In this document: positions 17,506 through 36,691 of the stretch, piece by piece
Numbering within the stretch: the first letter of the stretch is position 1
How the letters are laid out: every line of letters begins with the position of its first letter
Origin: a virus
Length of the DNA stretch: 41,597 nt
IMG/VR virus record: IMGVR_UViG_3300005264_000076
Location: 1-41,597 of that record
Direction: 5' to 3' (one strand)
Position numbers and translations under genes: made by a program
Notes under the pieces: generated by a model
Databases searched by the model: none
Told to the model about the DNA's origin: nothing
The model's input: only the letters and a program-made list of their open reading frames with translations

Positions 17506-17579
17506 GTTTAGAAAACTTGCAATCAGTGCATATATGAATTACTCTGATTTAGCCTTACTGTAGCCACAGAAAAAAAAGG

Positions 17580-18656: not shown

Positions 18657-18896
18657 ATGAAAACTACAGCAATTATTGTTATCGGATGCCTTGCGATCAC
18701 TTCCAGCGTGCTAATGCTGGAGGGGATCAATAACACTTATCAACCGGAAAAATTGGAGCTGGTAAAATCTGAATATCACTACTTATTAGACTTAGTAAAA
18801 GCAGACGCAGACTATCACGATAGCGAAGGCGACACGATCAAAGCAGATGAAATTTATAAAATCCACCGGAAAATAAAAAAGGAGTTAACAAAATGA
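18657..18896 (+). CDS. Small single-pass membrane protein
   Basis: This is a 79-residue protein starting at the ATG at 18657, two bases after the previous stop; a longer in-frame start at 18600 lies inside the upstream gene and is less likely. Residues 4-22 (TAIIVIGCLAITSSVLMLE) form a membrane anchor or signal; the rest is soluble, charged and helical, ending KIKKELTK. It overlaps the next gene by four bases. Role unknown. Confidence 0.6.
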   Translation: MKTTAIIVIGCLAITSSVLMLEGINNTYQPEKLELVKSEYHYLLDLVKADADYHDSEGDTIKADEIYKIHRKIKKELTK

Positions 18897-19231
18897 AAAA
18901 ATACACACGATCAGATTATAATCACATCTCAATCACTGGATCGCTCACAGATCAGTCGCAAAAACATATAGGAAATGTTGAAGAAAACGGCAGAACTAAA
19001 ACCTCATTTATTATCAGAGTAGAACGACCGCAGGAGCTAAAATCAGCTCAACCATATTATGACTATATTAATTGTGTGGCATGGGCTGGGCTGGCTGATT
19101 TTATATTCGACCAACGCAGGGGATCAATAGTAAAAGTAGACGGAATGTTAACGCTACATAGCCACCTAATTGATGGTGAAAAAAAATGGATCACCGAAAT
19201 CGTAGCGGATAATATCGAGCTGATCAGATGA
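18893..19231 (+). CDS. SSB-like OB-fold protein 1
   Basis: This 112-residue protein shows a single-stranded-DNA-binding-protein layout: SITGSLT near the N-terminus, TSFIIRVERP, YINCVAWAGLADFIFD (about 59-74), then IVKVDGMLTLHS and KKWITEIVADNIELIR. This is the bacterial SSB OB fold without the long C-terminal tail. It probably coats ssDNA during replication or recombination. It starts inside the previous stop (ATGA). A second OB-fold gene follows two genes later. Confidence 0.7.
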   Translation: MKKYTRSDYNHISITGSLTDQSQKHIGNVEENGRTKTSFIIRVERPQELKSAQPYYDYINCVAWAGLADFIFDQRRGSIVKVDGMLTLHSHLIDGEKKWITEIVADNIELIR

Positions 19232-23382: not shown

Positions 23383-23886
23383 ATGGCAATACCATTAAGA
23401 AAAGGAAAAGAAGGAAGTTTTGAACAGGCACCGGCAGGAACTTATAATGCTTTATGCATTGGAGTTGCAGACTTAGGGATGCAAGAAACTAAGTACGGTA
23501 TTAAACATGAACTGTTATTAGTTTTTGAAATTGATGAGGAAACCAAAGACGGTAAGCGGTTTCAAATTACCAAAAAAGTCACTAATGTAATGGGAGATAG
23601 GTCAAACCTTGTTACTATCATCAAAGGTCTTGGAATGGATCCAGTTGAAGGGTTTGATATTGAAGAGGTTGCAGGTAAACCTTGTATGGCTGCTATCGTT
23701 CACAATCAGGTGGGTGATAAAACATACGTTAATATCGATAGTGTTTCGGCACTACCTAAAGGAATGGAGCCACTAACTCAGGAAACTGAAATGGAAGGTG
23801 TTCAAAAATTGGTAGATCATTTTGTTAACAAACAGGTTGTTAATAATGAAGTTACTGAAAAAGATATTAAAGATGCTCCGTTCTAA
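23383..23886 (+). CDS. Phage ssDNA-binding-like protein
   Basis: This 167-residue protein has PAGTYNALCIGVADLGMQET, then YGIKHELLLVFEIDEETKDG, which I recognise from a conserved phage family next to RecB-type nucleases and thought to bind ssDNA. The C-terminus ends KDIKDAPF, like the acidic DxPF tip by which SSBs recruit partner proteins. RBS is AAAGGG. A terminator follows the gene. Function is inferred from context and the tip. Confidence 0.65.
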   Translation: MAIPLRKGKEGSFEQAPAGTYNALCIGVADLGMQETKYGIKHELLLVFEIDEETKDGKRFQITKKVTNVMGDRSNLVTIIKGLGMDPVEGFDIEEVAGKPCMAAIVHNQVGDKTYVNIDSVSALPKGMEPLTQETEMEGVQKLVDHFVNKQVVNNEVTEKDIKDAPF

Positions 23887-24507: not shown

Positions 24508-26232
<1,725 letters not shown>

Positions 26233-26240
26233 TAAAAAAT

Positions 26241-26506
26241 AGTAGATTACATAAATCGATCAATCAACATGGTGCTTCGGCCGCTGACCATCGAACAAAT
26301 TTGCTCTTTTTGCAATCTAGCAAAAAAATAAAATCGAGTAGATTGTAAAAAAGGCAAATTATAACCATGGGTCGGGGCTTGGTATACCATGTGGATGGAC
26401 GAAAAAGGTGGGTAGATTGTAAAAAAGTGAAAAAATGACTTAGCTCTACTAGGTTTTCATAAATGTTTGTGGATACACCTTTATTGGTCAAAAATGTAAT
26501 CTACTG
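26241..26506. repeat. Iteron-like cluster, candidate replication origin
   Basis: The 371-base gap between the helicase and primase-helicase genes has no supported gene. It contains five copies of a 14-base element with core TAGATT: plus strand at 26242, 26338 and 26412, minus strand at 26307-26320 and 26491-26504. Two are GTAGATTGTAAAAA exactly, and the outer two form perfect 12-base inverted repeats (AGTAGATTACAT). Two small GC-rich patches and palindromes CCATGG and GGTATACC lie between. Iterons beside the replication initiator gene are typical of origins, so an origin is inferred. Confidence 0.6.
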
Positions 26507-26538
26507 ATAAATAAGTTGCTAAAAGTATAATTTTAGGA

Positions 26539-26567
26539 TTGACGCTGGTATTTTTAATCAGTAAACT
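26539..26567 (+). promoter_or_regulatory. Promoter before primase-helicase gene
   Basis: TTGACG (26539-26544), a 17-base spacer and TAAACT (26562-26567) resemble a sigma70 promoter (five and four of six matches). The gene starts 37 bases after the -10 box with AAGGAG as RBS. It lies just to the right of the iterons. Confidence 0.6.
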
Positions 26568-26603
26568 TAAATAATATCAAAGGTATTTTAAGGAGAAAAA
26601 CAC

Positions 26604-29555
26604 ATGGATTTGAAGGATCAGATAGTCGATAGTTTAACACCAAATTTTATAGAAAATTTATACTCAGAAGTGAGCAAAAAAAAGCGAGGAATTAATGGTG
26701 AATTTATGGGCTCTTGTCCATCATCAAATCATGAAGATAAATCAGCATCATTTTCATTCAATGTTAACAAAAAAGGTGTGTATAAATGTCATGTTTGTGG
26801 AGATTCAGTTTCAGGTGATATTTTTAATTATGTTCAGGAGTTTAAGGGGTGTGATTCTTTTGAAGATGCTTTAAGTTTTTTGGCTGATAAATTATCTATT
26901 AATAAAGATGATGAAAAAAAAGCTAAAACAAAAAGTAAAAAAGATGAAAAAGAAGAGTGGGAGCCGGAAAAAGAAGATCGTGCAATTCCAGTACAAACTA
27001 TTATGGCTGCTGTTGCTATATTAAGAAGTGAAGAGAATTCTGAGGCATTTAAAGCATTAATTGATATAGGAATTACTGAGGAAATTATCACTAAATATTT
27101 TATTGGATATAAAAATGGTAGATATTGGTTCCCAGTAAAAAATAATAAAGGTGAATTTGTTAACGTCAGACGATATATGATGGATGCTAAATCTAAAAGG
27201 GTTCCAAAAATGATGTCGTATCCAGTTGATGCTGATGGTTATGGTTATGGTGAATCAAGAATGTTTCCTTTAAGGTCGTTAAAATCTGATGAAGTTTATA
27301 TTTTTGAAGGTGAAAAGGATATGTTTATTGCATTATCTAAAGGACTTAATGCAATTACAAGTGGTGGGGTTACTAGTTGGAAAAAAGATTGGGGAGCATT
27401 ATTCCTTAACAAAAGTGTTGTTATTTGTATGGATGCTGATAAAGAGGGTATTGAAGGTGCTAAAAAAAGAGTGGCTGATATATTCCCATTTTGCAAACAG
27501 CTGAAAGTTATTAATCTTCCTTTTGAGAATATAACTAAGGACTGTAATGATTTTGCTGATTACTTAGAATTATATAGTTTTTCTGATTTTGTTAAGTTAG
27601 TAGCTGAAACACCAGTATATAAAGAAGTTACTACCGAAGATGTTACCGAATACAAGGTTAATATAAATGAGGCATCTAAACCTGTTTACGCTAACAAACG
27701 ATGTTTTTCTAAGGGTACGATCGTTACAGCTAAAGACGATACTATGTGGACTGTTCCAGCTGAATTAGAATTGTCTTGCGACTTCAACGATCACCGCACT
27801 CCAGGATGTAAGACTTGTATATTAAAAGATTTAGGCTCATTACCATTACAAAAAAGGATAGAAAAAACGGATCCTCTTTTATTAGAATTATTCAAAGTAA
27901 GCTCAACTGTTAAAACTGGTAGTTTAAAGAGACACTTTGGTGTAAAAGCGAAATGTGGAGCCTTTAAGACTAAACTAATATCAGCGTATAAGGTTGAATC
28001 ACTTGAATTACAGGTGGATCTCTCATACAACAAAACAAGTGTTGAACCTCAATGTAAAAATTATGGATATTATGTTTGGGAAAATAAGTTTGATAGAATG
28101 TTCCCGAATAAAACCTATAATATAAAATCATTATCTACAGCGGATCCAAAAACACAAAACTCAGTTCATCAAATTTATTTAGCAGAATTAGCCGAAACAA
28201 ATATCGATACCTTTAAGGTAACTAAAGAAACAGCTGAAAATTTGAAAAGATTCCAACCGAAAGAAGGTCAATCTATAGAGGATAAAATTGGTGATATATA
28301 TGATGAGTTTTCTAATCGTGCTGGACTTTATGGTAGGCAGGATATGTTTTTACTTATGGATCTAGTATTTCATTCAGCATTAAGTTTTAGTTTTCAGAAT
28401 AAAATTTTGAGAAAAGGTTGGGTTGAGGCTGCAATTGTAGGTGATTCAGGTACAGCCAAGTCAGCAATGGCAAACTTTTTATGTGATACCTATAGGGTTG
28501 GTGATTTTGTTGGTGGTGAAAATTTATCTTTTGCCGGACTAGTTGGTGGATTAACTCAGATGGGAACCAACTGGAATATCCATTGGGGTAGAATACCGCT
28601 TAATGATAGACGAATGTGTGTGATTGATGAAACGTCAGGTATGTTAGTTGAACAGATCGCAAGATTATCAGAAATTAGATCTAGCGGTATTGCTAAGATT
28701 GAAAAAATAAAAACTGAACAAACAATGGCTAGGACTAGGTTGCTATGGCTATCTAACCCAAGGAAAAAGGGTTTTGGTGTTACCACCTTCGATAAGGGTG
28801 TGAAAGCTATACCGGATGTTTTTGGACAGCCAGAAGATGTAAGAAGATTAGATTTAGCATTGTGTGTGGCTAGTGAAGAGGTATCAGCTACGATGGCTAA
28901 TTCTTCACCAAAAGCTGTTGATGATTATTATGGTGAAATGAATCACGATCTAGTTATGTTTATTTGGTCCAGAACACCTGAGCAAATTATTGTACCGGAT
29001 GATGTGCAAAGTCATATCCGTAAATGGGTTATTAGTATTGATGGTATTTATTCCGATACAATCCCATTAATTGAAACATCAGTATTTAGAGAAAAACTAG
29101 TAAGAATGTCTGTAGCACTTGCTGGTAGATTATTCTCAGTTGATTTTAAGGGTAGAATTATCGTTAAAAAAGAGCATGTTGATTATATTATGAAATATTT
29201 GAAACGCATCTATTCAAACGAACGGTTTCAATATGAGCAATATTCAAGAGAAAAATTGAGAGCCCATAACCTACTGAACACAGATCGTATTTGTGAAATT
29301 TTCGACCTTGATGATGAGTTTGTTATTGCGGATCTATCAAGAGGTACGATTAATAAAGGTGCAATTGATGAATGTTTTCGTGATGGTGTATTGAGTTTAA
29401 CTACCAAAGCAAAGGTTATAAATGAGCTAAGAAGGTTAAATGCAATCGATGATAGGACTAATTATTATATTATTCAGCCGGGATTTAGAGCTTTTTTGAA
29501 CAAAAAACTTAAAAAAATTCAAGATAATGGTGGTATTGGAGATATGCCAGTATGA
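26604..29555 (+). CDS. Primase-helicase: CHC2 zinc finger, TOPRIM, MCM-like AAA+
   Basis: This is a 983-residue fusion. Residues 30-90 form a CHC2 zinc finger (Cys38, His43, Cys62, Cys65). TOPRIM primase motifs follow: IFEGEKD (about 232) and CMDADKEG (about 274). A Cys-containing middle region (CDFNDHRTPGCKTC, about 393-406) leads to an AAA+ core with Walker A GDSGTAKS (about 613), Walker B CVIDETSG (about 672), sensor-1 LLWLSNPR (about 713) and VRRLDLAL (about 746). The AAA+ motifs parallel MCM (GDPGTAKS, CIDE, SRFDL). It would make primers and unwind DNA at the adjoining origin. The start overlaps nothing; the end overlaps the next gene by four bases. Confidence 0.8.
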   Translation: MDLKDQIVDSLTPNFIENLYSEVSKKKRGINGEFMGSCPSSNHEDKSASFSFNVNKKGVYKCHVCGDSVSGDIFNYVQEFKGCDSFEDALSFLADKLSINKDDEKKAKTKSKKDEKEEWEPEKEDRAIPVQTIMAAVAILRSEENSEAFKALIDIGITEEIITKYFIGYKNGRYWFPVKNNKGEFVNVRRYMMDAKSKRVPKMMSYPVDADGYGYGESRMFPLRSLKSDEVYIFEGEKDMFIALSKGLNAITSGGVTSWKKDWGALFLNKSVVICMDADKEGIEGAKKRVADIFPFCKQLKVINLPFENITKDCNDFADYLELYSFSDFVKLVAETPVYKEVTTEDVTEYKVNINEASKPVYANKRCFSKGTIVTAKDDTMWTVPAELELSCDFNDHRTPGCKTCILKDLGSLPLQKRIEKTDPLLLELFKVSSTVKTGSLKRHFGVKAKCGAFKTKLISAYKVESLELQVDLSYNKTSVEPQCKNYGYYVWENKFDRMFPNKTYNIKSLSTADPKTQNSVHQIYLAELAETNIDTFKVTKETAENLKRFQPKEGQSIEDKIGDIYDEFSNRAGLYGRQDMFLLMDLVFHSALSFSFQNKILRKGWVEAAIVGDSGTAKSAMANFLCDTYRVGDFVGGENLSFAGLVGGLTQMGTNWNIHWGRIPLNDRRMCVIDETSGMLVEQIARLSEIRSSGIAKIEKIKTEQTMARTRLLWLSNPRKKGFGVTTFDKGVKAIPDVFGQPEDVRRLDLALCVASEEVSATMANSSPKAVDDYYGEMNHDLVMFIWSRTPEQIIVPDDVQSHIRKWVISIDGIYSDTIPLIETSVFREKLVRMSVALAGRLFSVDFKGRIIVKKEHVDYIMKYLKRIYSNERFQYEQYSREKLRAHNLLNTDRICEIFDLDDEFVIADLSRGTINKGAIDECFRDGVLSLTTKAKVINELRRLNAIDDRTNYYIIQPGFRAFLNKKLKKIQDNGGIGDMPV

Positions 29556-30170: not shown

Positions 30171-30459
30171 TGCGGAACAGTTAGGATATACAGATTCAGA
30201 CGTAAGAGATCGTGATGTTAGTAAAGATTTTATCTTACTACAAATTTCAATGAACACTGAATCGAAAGCGGTAATGGCATCGTTCCATCCAGATATTGAA
30301 AAAAGACTTGCAGCAGCAATAAAAGAGGGTGACGAAGGTAAGGATGCGGCTGAAAGAGTTTTATCAATGATAGACCTTTTATCAAAAACCTTAGTAGCGT
30401 CCCTAATCACGACAACTGAGAAAACAATTCCGGATCCAGCAGCAAATGTCGGAAACTAA
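30160..30459 (+). CDS. Hypothetical protein, GTG start
   Basis: This is a 99-residue protein with a GTG start and one of the best RBS in the window (AAGGAGGTG, eight bases upstream). Contains SKDFILLQISMNTESKAVMA and a helical Ala-rich part, EGKDAAERVLSMIDLLSKTL. The family is unknown. The start context TAAGAGTGGCAAATA recurs at the start of the gene at 31325. It overlaps the VRR-NUC gene by 14 bases. Confidence 0.6.
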   Translation: MANSAEQLGYTDSDVRDRDVSKDFILLQISMNTESKAVMASFHPDIEKRLAAAIKEGDEGKDAAERVLSMIDLLSKTLVASLITTTEKTIPDPAANVGN

Positions 30460-30742
30460 GATTGTTAAAAAAATAAAGGATTATGTTAATTCTTTAGCAG
30501 GATTTTGGGTTTGGAAAACTCATGGTGATGGATATTCCACTCCTGGAATAGCGGATTTGATAGGAATTACACCAAACGGCAGATTTATCGCCATAGAGGT
30601 GAAAAAGCCTGAAACGAAGAACAATCTATCTATTGCTCAAAAGTATTTCTTACGAGCGATTGAAAACAAGGGTGGAATTAGTATGATGGCATATTCAGTT
30701 GAATGTGTTCAAAAAAAGTTGAAAATGGAGAAGATAATATGA
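30446..30742 (+). CDS. VRR-NUC nuclease
   Basis: This 98-residue protein matches the VRR-NUC form of PD-(D/E)XK nucleases: GIADLIGI (Asp37), FIAIEVKKPE (Glu51, Lys53) and SIAQKYFLRAI (Gln65), then GG near the C-terminus. Phage VRR-NUC proteins are thought to resolve branched DNA such as Holliday junctions before packaging. It lies in the replication operon; its stop overlaps the next start (ATGA). Confidence 0.85.
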   Translation: MSETKIVKKIKDYVNSLAGFWVWKTHGDGYSTPGIADLIGITPNGRFIAIEVKKPETKNNLSIAQKYFLRAIENKGGISMMAYSVECVQKKLKMEKII

Positions 30743-31882: not shown

Positions 31883-34800
31883 TTATCTACCGTAAGGTCC
31901 TACCCTTCTTTTTTTGAGTGGTGCAAGACTATAATCAGAATAAAATGGTCGCCTAAGATCGCCAGTTTTCAACGTTTGCGGTATACCTACTCTAGCTTTT
32001 CTAACTGCACCAGCTGATAGACCAGTAAAGGCTATAACCGCAGCCTCAGCCATTCTGTCCTTAGCTCCACCATTTAAAATAGTTTCAACAGGTGAGAATA
32101 CATTTACACCAAATTCTGTACCAAAACCAGCATTAGGTTTATAACCTTTTTTTGATAAGTAAGTCCTATTTGCTCCAGCAAGAGCTGCATCACCCACTGT
32201 ATTTATTACAGGTAATCCACCAATAATACCGCCAAATGTGGTTCTGAGTACCCCTATAGGTTCCTGTATTAATTTATCAAGGTCAAAACCATTTCTAACT
32301 AAATGTAAGTGAACCCCAGCAACAGTAAAGATACCCATTAACGCTGCAATTTTCTTTTTAGCAGATTTTCGACCAGCTTTAATTTTAGCTTTTTCAGATC
32401 CCCTTGTTGATTTATATCCATCAGCATAGGCCTTAAAAGTTTCTTCAAAAATTACATTAGCATTTTGGTTAGGCTGGTTTAGGAATGTTGTAAAAGTTCT
32501 AGCAATACCAACTTCGGTAAAATGTTTCGGTAAATCAATTATCCTAGACATCGGCTGAGTTTTACGAATAAGTTCATCAGCCTCTTTTACCGCTGCTTTT
32601 CTACTGTGATTTGATAGTGCCTCGTTATATTTAGCTATCCATAAGATTGAGGTTGTCACCGCATCCATAACCCTAATACCTTCCATACCAAAAGCCTTAA
32701 CCATATAAACAAGTTCACTTGTCATTTCACCAAGGTATCTAACCTTATCCATTTTAGTTTCACCAGCACCATGCCTAAGAGTTTCAAGCATCCCGGAAGA
32801 TTGAAGTAAGTTTTTCAGTGGAGTTCTTTCAAGTGCATCTTGAACATCACGCTCAATACTGTTTGGTCGCATACGCATCATCGTTGACATTTTATAAACA
32901 AATTCTGTTGATTTAATTGGATTAGAAAAAACCTCGTCTAAAGCCTTAGCTATATACATTTTTTTCCTAATTTGAGCTGCCCCCATGTGGAAAGATACCG
33001 GCTGAGTTAATATAACCCTAGCATTGTATCCAAGAACACCGGTGATATAGTTACGTCTGAAAAAATCAGCCATTTTATCAGGAGTAGATGTAGATCTTCT
33101 AGCTGTACCATGAGCCAGTCTTTCAACCCAAGCATGTACCTCTCTAGTAAGAACCGTACTAACACCATCCATGGCACTTTTTATTTCAGGATGATTAAGA
33201 AAAGCTCTCACATCCCGAATAGGTTTTGCCATTGCTAATAAATGCTCAACCATAACCATGTTTTTAGCTACCGTACCAAAATAATCCATTCTCCTAAATG
33301 GTGCATTGGATCCAGTTCTACTTTTGGTCATATTTTTATTAATGCCACGATTAGTATTTCTACTAAGAATTTCACTAATAAATGCTGTTTCAGCATTATC
33401 AGTTTTAATATCCATAATAGGGAAATATCTAAATTCTTTTGGTAAATCTACACCATATTCTTCTCTGAACCATCTAGTTAGCCTAGGCCACTGAACATTA
33501 TCAAAATAATCGATTTGAGCATCTACAGCAGCTTTATGCTTTGCTGATAAACTTTTAATAATTTTCTCCATAGCCTTTTCATCAACACCTGTACCTTCAA
33601 GGTGATTAATTCCTGCTTGATTTTGAGAGTGAGCATAAACATGCATACCTTGATTAATCGTATAGGTTGCTTGCTGTCCTTTACCAGTTTTAAGTGTTAT
33701 GAGCTTGTCATACATTGCAGCTGGAATATCAACATCCTTATGAATTTCCTCAAAGATCTTTCCATGCCTTTCACCACCCCTAAAAGCAGTCTGTACACCA
33801 CCTTCTAATTGGTTATATATATTTTGTGTCATAGCACTATGTTTTTTGAACCCATCAAAAAATCCTATAATTCGCTCACCTCTAAGTGAGTGAGCGAAAT
33901 ATTTTTTAATAGATTCCATATTGCGATCTCTATTATAAATATGTTTTGGTCTAACAGATTCATATTGATAATCAACAGCTTTAGCTGAACCAAACACTTC
34001 CTTAATTTCTCCTACAGCTCGCTCAACTTCAACTTCTAGCTTTTTTAATCGAGCCATCTCTTTTTCAGCACCAACCATATGCCCCTTTTCTCGAAGTGAA
34101 TTTATGTTACCTAAAACCTTTTCAAGTTCATGGCTATTCATTTGATCAAAAGTTTTTCTCACTGCACTAGCTGCACGTTTGAGAAATTCAGGTGTAAAAT
34201 TTTTAACATCTTTAACGTTATCAACTAATCGGCTGTGTTCTTTATAAATACCACCAACATCCACACCATCAGTAGTAATTGATTTTAGATATTCTCTTAA
34301 CTTTTCGTTACTATCCGCATCCTGTCCACGACTAGGAGTTCTCTGTAACTTTCGTAATCTCTTAAATTCAGATCGAACACGTTTAATAACTTTTTTACGC
34401 AACCTACTTAATCTACGTTTTTCTAAAACCCTATCGATTTGATCAATAGCTTTTCTATATTGCTTAACAGAAACCGTTTCATTTTTAAGAAGAGTATCAA
34501 CTGTATTATGAACCTCAGCATCAATACCAACTCTTTTAGCATAATGATAAATGTTATTACGCATAATTTGAGTGTTGATTTTTGACTTCTTAGCCACTTC
34601 AACCTCTAACATTAATCTAGCCTTAGTTGCCTCTGGTGATGCCCCTCTCATTCGAGCCCTAACCCCTCTGAGATTATCCTGTAATTCTTTTAACCCATCA
34701 GTCTTTAATATCCCATCATCAATTATCTTATCAACTTGATACCTTATCTGAGCATCGATAGATTCAAGCTCCCATTTACCATATAATTTCGGATCAATTT

Positions 34801-36691
34801 TTTTCATTACATCAGCCATAGATTTAGCAGTTACAATACGACCATCAACTTCTAGTGGTAGATCCGGATCCGTTTGAGATAATTCAAAAACATCATATTT
34901 ATCAAAATCACTAGCAAACTTTTCTTTACCTATAGCCTCAGCATCTTTTAATAACTCAGCCACCTCAAACCCATCTTCTGATTTGATCTGATCCAGTACT
35001 TTTTGCTTAATGTCGTTGCGTCCTAAATAACTTTCACCCTGTACCCTCATTTCCTCAGTGAAGATGTTTAGGTCGTTAAAATCTTCTCGTTTCACCATTT
35101 CTGCAAATTCTTTAACAGCTGTATCAAGTGGTAGATCGCTTTTTGTAACCTTGTTAGTGAAATATTGTTTACCAATAGTATCAACTAAATCTTGATAATC
35201 AGCTTTATTTTCAGGAGCAATATATAGTTTCATACCTTTTTTACCTTTAGGTCGAAGGTATTTTTTGAACTGGCCTAGAGTACTCTCAGCTTGTTTCTCA
35301 TTGATATCTTTGCGAATAGCAGCAGCTCGTTTAGTTGCTGATACTGGTTTAACCACAGTTGGTTTCTTTGGTTTACCTCGCAGTGGTGTTTTGTATTTCT
35401 CAGCCTTTTTCTTAATAACATCTTTAATAATTTTTTCAGATGGTTTAGCTGCTGCTTTTGGCACAAAAGTTTCACCCTTTGATAATTTCATTGCCTGTTT
35501 AACTAAAAACACTTTTTCTTTGTTTGATAGTCTGGCTAATTCATCATAAAGCTCTTTGTGAGCTTTTTTATATCTCTGACCATTCCAAAAATCTAAGAAC
35601 CCTACAGGATCCTTTTCAACCATTTCTTGAATATTCTTATATTCAGGAACCTCTTGTGTCCCACCAGCTTTATTTGTTTTACCAGCTTTACTAGAGCTAG
35701 ATCCAGCACTACTTTTAGATCCACCACTCGCAGGTGCAGCTTTTGGTTTATATTTATTTACTAATTTATTAATACCAAGTTTAGCAAATACCGCAGCTGT
35801 TTCAAAAATAACCGCTGCCGCTGCATTTTTGGCAAGATCCGAAGTTACAAATCTTTTAAGTTTTTCATCACCAGCACCTTCCTCAAGAAGTGCATCAATA
35901 GCTGAACTTGTTTGTAATGTTGCAAATAGTTTTGCACTTCCTGGCAAAATTTCCCTAGATAAGTTTGCTAACTTACTTGATTTAACTATGCCAGCTGAAC
36001 CAGCCGCAGCTTTATCAATAGCTCCAAGCACACCAGCAACTTTCAAACCTTTATTAATTAATGTAAATTCAGTAGCAATTGCAGCCACTTCCCCAGCTAT
36101 ACCCTCAAACTTTGCTGAACCTTCATATTCTCCTGGTAAATAATCCATGAATTGTTCACGTTCATCTTCCGGAACTCTTGTAACCTTTTCAACAAATCGC
36201 TTAATAAACATCGTACCTTCACGACTATAAAAGTCTTTTTTCTGTTGTTCATCCATATTAAAAATATCTTCTGGAAAACTTTTCCCAAAATCTTTAACAT
36301 TTTGTGTAAATGCTGATACCTCTTCTTTTACCGTACCAGCTACTTTTGAAACGTCATTTTGTACTGGACCAGGCAAAGCGTCAAATGCAGCCTGTCCTGC
36401 CATATCAACACCTCTGGCCATTTCACTACCTATTTGATTAAGCTCCGGCTGAGTAACATGAGATGCATCAACTTGACCTTGTTCTGGCATTGACCATTCA
36501 GGTTCAGGTTGTTGATTAAATTGCATTGCAGGTGCATTAATTGTTATACCATCATCTACATCCTCAAATTTAGGTAGAGCAGCACCATCATCTACATCCT
36601 CAAATTTAGGTAAAGGACTACTATCCCCTATATCTTCAAACGAAGGTAGAGCAGCACTATCATCTATATCCTCAAATTTAGGTAATAACAT
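31883..36691 (-). CDS. Giant internal virion / ejection protein
   Basis: This 1602-residue protein starts with four 12-residue repeats of the form LPKFEDVDDGAA (3-50). Low-complexity Lys/Ser/Gly linkers and long coiled coils follow (about 640-960). The C-terminal third holds segments typical of large phage virion proteins and polyvalent proteins: WVERLAHGTARRST, NYITGVLGYNARVILTQPVS and FTTFLNQPNQN. A hydrophobic stretch (IAALMGIFTVAGVHLHLV) lies near residue 1455. It probably is carried in the head and injected with DNA. No transglycosylase motif was found. Next to two smaller ejection-type genes; last gene of the late operon. Confidence 0.7.
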   Translation of the reverse strand: MLLPKFEDIDDSAALPSFEDIGDSSPLPKFEDVDDGAALPKFEDVDDGITINAPAMQFNQQPEPEWSMPEQGQVDASHVTQPELNQIGSEMARGVDMAGQAAFDALPGPVQNDVSKVAGTVKEEVSAFTQNVKDFGKSFPEDIFNMDEQQKKDFYSREGTMFIKRFVEKVTRVPEDEREQFMDYLPGEYEGSAKFEGIAGEVAAIATEFTLINKGLKVAGVLGAIDKAAAGSAGIVKSSKLANLSREILPGSAKLFATLQTSSAIDALLEEGAGDEKLKRFVTSDLAKNAAAAVIFETAAVFAKLGINKLVNKYKPKAAPASGGSKSSAGSSSSKAGKTNKAGGTQEVPEYKNIQEMVEKDPVGFLDFWNGQRYKKAHKELYDELARLSNKEKVFLVKQAMKLSKGETFVPKAAAKPSEKIIKDVIKKKAEKYKTPLRGKPKKPTVVKPVSATKRAAAIRKDINEKQAESTLGQFKKYLRPKGKKGMKLYIAPENKADYQDLVDTIGKQYFTNKVTKSDLPLDTAVKEFAEMVKREDFNDLNIFTEEMRVQGESYLGRNDIKQKVLDQIKSEDGFEVAELLKDAEAIGKEKFASDFDKYDVFELSQTDPDLPLEVDGRIVTAKSMADVMKKIDPKLYGKWELESIDAQIRYQVDKIIDDGILKTDGLKELQDNLRGVRARMRGASPEATKARLMLEVEVAKKSKINTQIMRNNIYHYAKRVGIDAEVHNTVDTLLKNETVSVKQYRKAIDQIDRVLEKRRLSRLRKKVIKRVRSEFKRLRKLQRTPSRGQDADSNEKLREYLKSITTDGVDVGGIYKEHSRLVDNVKDVKNFTPEFLKRAASAVRKTFDQMNSHELEKVLGNINSLREKGHMVGAEKEMARLKKLEVEVERAVGEIKEVFGSAKAVDYQYESVRPKHIYNRDRNMESIKKYFAHSLRGERIIGFFDGFKKHSAMTQNIYNQLEGGVQTAFRGGERHGKIFEEIHKDVDIPAAMYDKLITLKTGKGQQATYTINQGMHVYAHSQNQAGINHLEGTGVDEKAMEKIIKSLSAKHKAAVDAQIDYFDNVQWPRLTRWFREEYGVDLPKEFRYFPIMDIKTDNAETAFISEILSRNTNRGINKNMTKSRTGSNAPFRRMDYFGTVAKNMVMVEHLLAMAKPIRDVRAFLNHPEIKSAMDGVSTVLTREVHAWVERLAHGTARRSTSTPDKMADFFRRNYITGVLGYNARVILTQPVSFHMGAAQIRKKMYIAKALDEVFSNPIKSTEFVYKMSTMMRMRPNSIERDVQDALERTPLKNLLQSSGMLETLRHGAGETKMDKVRYLGEMTSELVYMVKAFGMEGIRVMDAVTTSILWIAKYNEALSNHSRKAAVKEADELIRKTQPMSRIIDLPKHFTEVGIARTFTTFLNQPNQNANVIFEETFKAYADGYKSTRGSEKAKIKAGRKSAKKKIAALMGIFTVAGVHLHLVRNGFDLDKLIQEPIGVLRTTFGGIIGGLPVINTVGDAALAGANRTYLSKKGYKPNAGFGTEFGVNVFSPVETILNGGAKDRMAEAAVIAFTGLSAGAVRKARVGIPQTLKTGDLRRPFYSDYSLAPLKKRRVGPYGR
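36542..36685 (-). repeat. Four tandem 36-bp repeats at start of giant virion gene
   Basis: Four in-frame copies encode LPKFEDIDDSAA, LPSFEDIGDSSP, LPKFEDVDDGAA and LPKFEDVDDGIT. The third and fourth are nearly identical at DNA level. The acidic FED repeats may be binding or packaging signals. Confidence 0.9.

Follow-up and report, generated by a model that had tools for sequence, protein, structure and literature searches.

A phage protein family predicted to join a DnaG-like TOPRIM primase to a divergent MCM-type helicase

In T7 gp4 and Twinkle, the motor is a RecA-fold helicase of superfamily 4 (SF4) that moves 5'-3'. To our knowledge, MCM helicases occur in the bacterial world mainly with archaeo-eukaryotic primases (AEPs) or alone; examples of the AEP-MCM arrangement are BcMCM of a Bacillus cereus prophage and the PrimQH-MCM proteins. 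AEP-MCM fusions and MCM proteins of bacterial mobile elements are already known (PMC5862659), and SCCmec Cch is an MCM-like helicase of staphylococcal cassette elements without a fused primase (PMC7581432). The pairing of a TOPRIM primase with an MCM appears undescribed: no TOPRIM-MCM fusion was described in the literature searched, and an earlier mention in Kazlauskas 2016 or Samuels 2009 is possible.

The window analysed here, the whole of an uncultured viral contig of 41,597 bases, encodes such a pairing in a single reading frame that starts with ATG and has a Shine-Dalgarno-like AAGGAG upstream. The domains of the protein and the features around its gene are listed in Table 1. The Pfam search of this reading frame matched MCM (PF00493) at residues 597-724 (1.8e-8; 34.2 bits, cut-off 23.3). 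Among the NCBIfam models, dnaG (TIGR01391) scored 79.6 bits, below its equivalog cut-off of 283.6, and a weak MCM match was also obtained. With the family profile, the region of residues 130-231 matched the DnaG structures 1dd9, 1eqn and 3b39 and the T7 gp4 structure 1nui. Judged by its sequence, the primase half is a DnaG-like core and not a DnaG ortholog.

Table 1. Coordinates of the fusion gene, its predicted domains and neighbouring features in the window
Feature	Position	Strand	Details
RecB/Cas4-like phage exonuclease	22374..23330	+	phrog_298 6e-25
NGO0469-family phage replication initiation protein	23383..23886	+	NF046043 1.1e-30, 106 bits, cut-off 75
Possible single-strand DNA binding protein	18893..19231	+	phrog_44 1.9e-8
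SNF2/UvsW-type helicase	24508..26232	+	PF00176 1.4e-20; conserved upstream neighbour
AT-rich gap	26233..26603	.	about 372 bp, upstream of the fusion gene
TAGATTRYA copies in the gap	26243, 26311, 26339, 26413, 26495	+, -, +, +, -	putative operator or origin sites
Primase-MCM fusion protein	26604..29555	+	983 aa; stop-free frame, three Pfam domains above cut-off, AlphaFold2
CHC2 zinc-binding domain, DnaG type	26661..26918	+	aa 20-105; C38, H43, C62, C65; Zn_ribbon_DnaG (PF01807) 7e-11, above cut-off in the Pfam search
RNA polymerase domain, N-terminal part	26991..27296	+	aa 130-231; conserved N187, R189, Y191, K202
TOPRIM catalytic domain	27297..27554	+	aa 232-317; Toprim_2 (PF13155) 2.2e-6; E237, D277, D279
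MCM N-terminal domain, OB fold and four-cysteine insert	27648..28214	+	aa 349-537; crossed by Foldseek and hhalign alignments to MCM
MCM AAA+ core	28224..28883	+	aa 541-760; PF00493, PDB matches to MCM2-7 and archaeal MCM
Parts of the AAA+ core			Walker A 613-620; h2i hairpin 646-662; Walker B 672-676; pre-sensor-1 hairpin 696-708; sensor 1 N718; arginine finger R748
AAA+ lid / sensor-2 helices	28932..29213	+	aa 777-870; AlphaFold2 helices, hhalign to archaeal MCM sensor-2 region
C-terminal winged-helix-like domain	29232..29528	+	aa 877-975; AlphaFold2 secondary structure, hhalign to archaeal MCM C-terminus

The preliminary description of this DNA had read the protein, from short motifs, as a fusion in which a TOPRIM primase is joined to an MCM-type AAA+ motor and not to a RecA-fold helicase. 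The motifs were confirmed at residues 613-620 (GDSGTAKS), 673-679 (VIDETSG), 715-719 (WLSNP) and 747-751 (RRLDL), and sequence, profile and fold comparisons agreed with that reading. In a single-sequence search of the PDB, nearly all matches were MCM chains, the best being yeast MCM2 (8e-7), and the one exception was a DnaG primase matched by the primase half. A family alignment of 70 members was built, on which the profile and the residue counts given below are based; searched against the PDB, the profile matched DnaG structures with its N-terminal half and MCM structures with the motor. The AlphaFold2 model of the whole protein had a mean pLDDT of 88.1, a second model of residues 346-983 only had a pLDDT of 89.0 and a pTM of 0.85, and the h2i and pre-sensor-1 hairpins were visible in the model of the fusion protein. 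For both the whole protein and residues 346-983, the best 50 Foldseek matches in the PDB were all MCM chains (best E 9e-22 and 7.6e-23, respectively), with alignments spanning about 550-685 columns; the TM-scores by query were moderate (0.45-0.6), because the domain arrangement differs from that of the MCM structures. Alignment by hhalign to six archaeal and archaeal-virus MCMs gave a probability of 99.1%, and its 540 columns cover the OB domain, the AAA+ core and the C-terminal winged helix. When a small target set was searched, the family HMM retrieved the same archaeal MCMs at E values from 2e-22 to 5e-11. A fold search of BFVD returned mostly matches to the primase half and no named TOPRIM-MCM protein. 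In these comparisons, MCM was nearest to the motor, and no phage helicase known from primase fusions came closer. Since sequence, fold and profile all match MCM, the motor half is read as a genuine, divergent MCM with a predicted OB-fold N-tier, an AAA+ core with its hairpins and a winged helix, and not as an SF4 or SF3 phage helicase.

The residues expected of both activities were highly conserved. E237, D277 and D279 of the TOPRIM domain and, in the motor, K619 (Walker A), E676 (Walker B), N718 (sensor 1) and R748 (arginine finger) were present in 70 of the 70 family members; the zinc-finger ligands were C38 in 68/70, H43 in 65/70, C62 in 69/70 and C65 in 44/70. Within the sensor-2 region of the same alignment, K831 was invariant and R834 was either R or K. 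Most members carry GDTRTGKS as Walker A, compared to GDPGTAKS in MCM. On these residues, the primase and motor halves both look active. All four cysteines of the MCM N-domain (C392, C402, C405 and C451; window 27777-27956) were found in 69 of 70 members, with the spacing C-x9-C-x2-C-x45-C, unlike the C-x2-C..C-x2-C zinc ribbon of archaeal MCMs. An OB-domain zinc ribbon of the latter pattern is present in many MCM subunits, not in all. The unusual spacing was treated as a variant of an MCM sub-feature, because the domain that holds the cysteines is present; the four cysteines are candidate ligands of a metal centre, either zinc or iron-sulphur.

We propose, with a probability of roughly 80%, that the gene encodes the phage's self-contained replicative primase and 3'-5' MCM-type helicase; we infer the fork activity and the 3'-5' polarity by analogy. 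The DnaG-type primase (CHC2 plus TOPRIM) occupies the place of the N-terminal A domain of cellular MCMs. Following established MCM biology, the protein would form a homohexamer that encircles the leading-strand template and moves 3'-5' with its N-tier first, and it would replace host DnaB at the fork. The lagging-strand template would be excluded at the N-tier, where the six primase domains could lay primers on the lagging strand directly. In T7 gp4, the same outcome is achieved by a helicase that travels 5'-3' along the lagging-strand template. The polymerase partner would usually be phage-encoded, either PolA or DnaE; the window phage, with no polymerase found in its record, probably relies on that of its host.

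Six-frame searches of the whole records yielded PolA in 14 and DnaE in 27 of 49 records, and 41 of the 49 carried a PolA or DnaE of their own, located downstream of the fusion gene wherever it fell within the loci examined. Neither the window record nor that of its nearest relative (L010) gave a match to PolA, DnaE or PolB, and the records without their own polymerase are these and few others. The earlier statement that no polymerase was seen is thus correct for the window and does not carry over to most of its relatives. DnaB_C was matched neither in the window record nor in any other of the 50 records searched in six frames, six of which belong to named phages whose genomes were deposited as complete; this absence is weak by itself for the IMG/VR records, because most may be fragments. 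The earlier remark that a separate DnaB was missing therefore extends from the window to all 50 records. In the 55 relatives whose upstream DNA was long enough, a same-strand SNF2/UvsW-like helicase was encoded upstream in 52, a RecA-like ATPase in 38, an exonuclease in 37 and a DUF669/NGO0469 protein in 14, with DnaE (29) or PolA (10) downstream.

The MCM half might instead serve only initiation or restart, by melting an origin or loading another helicase, while host DnaB unwinds the fork. This alternative, which we regard as unlikely, would suit the recombination or initiation setting formed by the NGO0469-family initiator and the SNF2, exonuclease and RecA-like genes; it would also suit the window record, which has no recognised polymerase and so must borrow parts of the host replisome. 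However, most relatives have a polymerase of their own, which suggests an independent fork, the built-in primase has its catalytic residues intact, and the Pfam, PHROG and NCBIfam matches of the window's early genes included no recognisable DnaB loader. The absence of any loader, as first described, is nevertheless uncertain, because the NGO0469-family initiation protein is encoded nearby and is, by its sequence, a candidate initiator or loader.

It is far less probable that the protein is an ordinary phage primase-helicase of the T7 gp4, DnaB or SF3 type that resembles MCM by short motifs only. Phage annotators have labelled relatives 'DNA primase/helicase', and phage primases and T7 gp4 are indeed matched by the primase half. 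Sequence and predicted fold already contradict this reading, however: DnaB_C is lacking in the 50 records, all motor matches by sequence and fold are to MCM, and the MCM match reaches past the AAA+ motifs to include the OB and winged-helix domains. A chimeric assembly or a frameshift artefact, conceivable for a single metagenome contig, has a negligible probability and is refuted by the genomes of the isolates Youna2, BSP7 and Krampus, which encode the same architecture, and by the long stop-free frame that holds the MCM match in 49 of 49 records.

The fusion protein belongs to a large family. In tblastn searches, 51 phage records (about 50 sequenced phages) encoded relatives, including phages of Microbacterium, Bacillus, Arthrobacter, Paenibacillus, Weizmannia and others. 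These relatives are mostly labelled 'DNA primase' or 'primase/helicase'; other labels are 'DNA primase small subunit' and even DNA polymerase. An MCM match was obtained in 49 of 49 records at E<=0.001 and exceeded the Pfam cut-off in 42 of them (six-frame search). An alignment-guided scan of IMG/VR detected at least 306 stretches encoding relatives, so the fusion is widespread, contrary to the earlier supposition that it was uncommon. A single-sequence pattern search of IMG/VR found no close relatives, megablast against phages gave no match, and the nearest relative, in L010, is 42-44% identical to the window protein. The bacterial genome contig collection contained one relative, in a MAG; at the sensitivity of that scan, the family is essentially viral. 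The portal of the window phage was nearest to bacteriophage portals. Because the isolates have bacterial hosts, this is not just a case of an archaeal virus carrying the helicase of its host.

The early genes of the window are bordered on both sides by oppositely oriented genes, with structural matches on one side; the early module therefore looks complete, although the record as a whole could be a fragment. Several other features of the neighbourhood were recorded. The SNF2-type helicase gene contains an in-frame run of AAT-type triplets (window 25284-25327), whose roughly 14 asparagines lie between the two halves of the helicase; it is possibly a phase-variable or assembly-prone repeat. A VRR-NUC nuclease that may be a Holliday junction resolvase is also encoded in the early cluster (30446-30742). 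The position directly after the fusion gene is taken by a small MarR-like gene in the window, compared to an XPD/DinG-like helicase (Helicase_C_2, DEAD_2) in the nearest relative (L010:12906-14474). On the minus strand, 31883-36691 encodes a protein of 1602 aa that starts with four near-identical acidic repeats of the LPKFEDxxD type; it had no PHROG match and weak Pfam matches only, and is probably a large virion protein.

The preliminary description had also placed the gene beside an iteron origin, and for this we found no support. Of the 7 TAGATTRYA copies in the record, 5 lie in the AT-rich gap, with irregular spacing and in both orientations, and in a general repeat test the shuffled gap sequence yielded equally large repeat families. 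The corresponding upstream region of the nearest relative contained no direct repeats, and GC skew reaches its minimum at 17567, away from the gap.

A related MCM half was found behind a different primase. In Bacillus phage vB_BboS-125 (L009:10936-14016) and plasmid p3 of B. velezensis (L091:7989-11081), PriS- and PriL-like domains of the archaeo-eukaryotic type (DNA_primase_S and DNA_primase_lrg) and MCM are joined in one protein. The window motor matched phrog_18685 (1.2e-55), the family of the vB_BboS-125 type; this PHROG, annotated 'unknown function', fits the AEP-MCM version over its full length. A tblastn search with the MCM half of vB_BboS-125 also retrieved archaeal and archaeal-virus MCMs. 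Without the long-branch row SV21 and with other rows sampled, a tree of MCM halves placed the TOPRIM-MCM proteins in one clade (SH-aLRT 96), to which the AEP-MCM proteins, represented by two members only, were sister. The first tree, which had nested AEP-MCM inside TOPRIM-MCM, was dropped, as it included the very long branch SV21 and the two groups were sisters once this was left out.

Taken together, we consider it reasonably probable that this phage clade carries a chimeric fork machine with a leading- and lagging-strand geometry inverted relative to DnaB-type replisomes, built on an MCM that has exchanged TOPRIM and AEP primases. If so, a bacterial-type primase would ride on an archaeo-eukaryotic-type 3'-5' helicase, the geometry would be the reverse of that in the DnaB-type replisomes of bacteria and bacteriophages, and the motor would have swapped unrelated primases during evolution. 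The occurrence of a DnaG-type primase with an MCM across a widespread clade shows that replication parts from two lineages can be combined within a single polypeptide. With its members in phages of Bacillus subtilis and Microbacterium foliorum, the family provides single-protein models for the coupling of a primase to a 3'-5' helicase, and the 'DNA primase' labels on dozens of phage genes should be changed to primase-MCM helicase.

Compared to known systems, the fusion shares with T7 gp4 and Twinkle a CHC2 and TOPRIM primase N-terminal to a ring helicase in one polypeptide (1nui, 1q57, 6n7i), whereas their motor is of the SF4 RecA-fold type and the motor here is an AAA+ MCM. With the MCMs of archaea and archaeal viruses (Haloferax tailed virus 1, Halorubrum virus Humcor1) it shares the OB domain, AAA+ core and winged helix; those proteins lack a fused primase, differ in their N-terminal domain and carry the C-x2-C..C-x2-C zinc ribbon. 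SCCmec Cch, compared by description, is alike as an MCM-like helicase of a bacterial mobile element and differs in having no fused primase. The AEP-MCM proteins, compared here through vB_BboS-125 and the B. velezensis plasmid, have an N-terminal primase and an MCM half that is homologous to the one here (vB_BboS-125 shares about 27% identity with other members over 600 aa), and vB_BboS-125 also encodes an SNF2-type helicase upstream and PolA nearby; their primase is archaeo-eukaryotic and unrelated to the CHC2/TOPRIM primase of the window protein.
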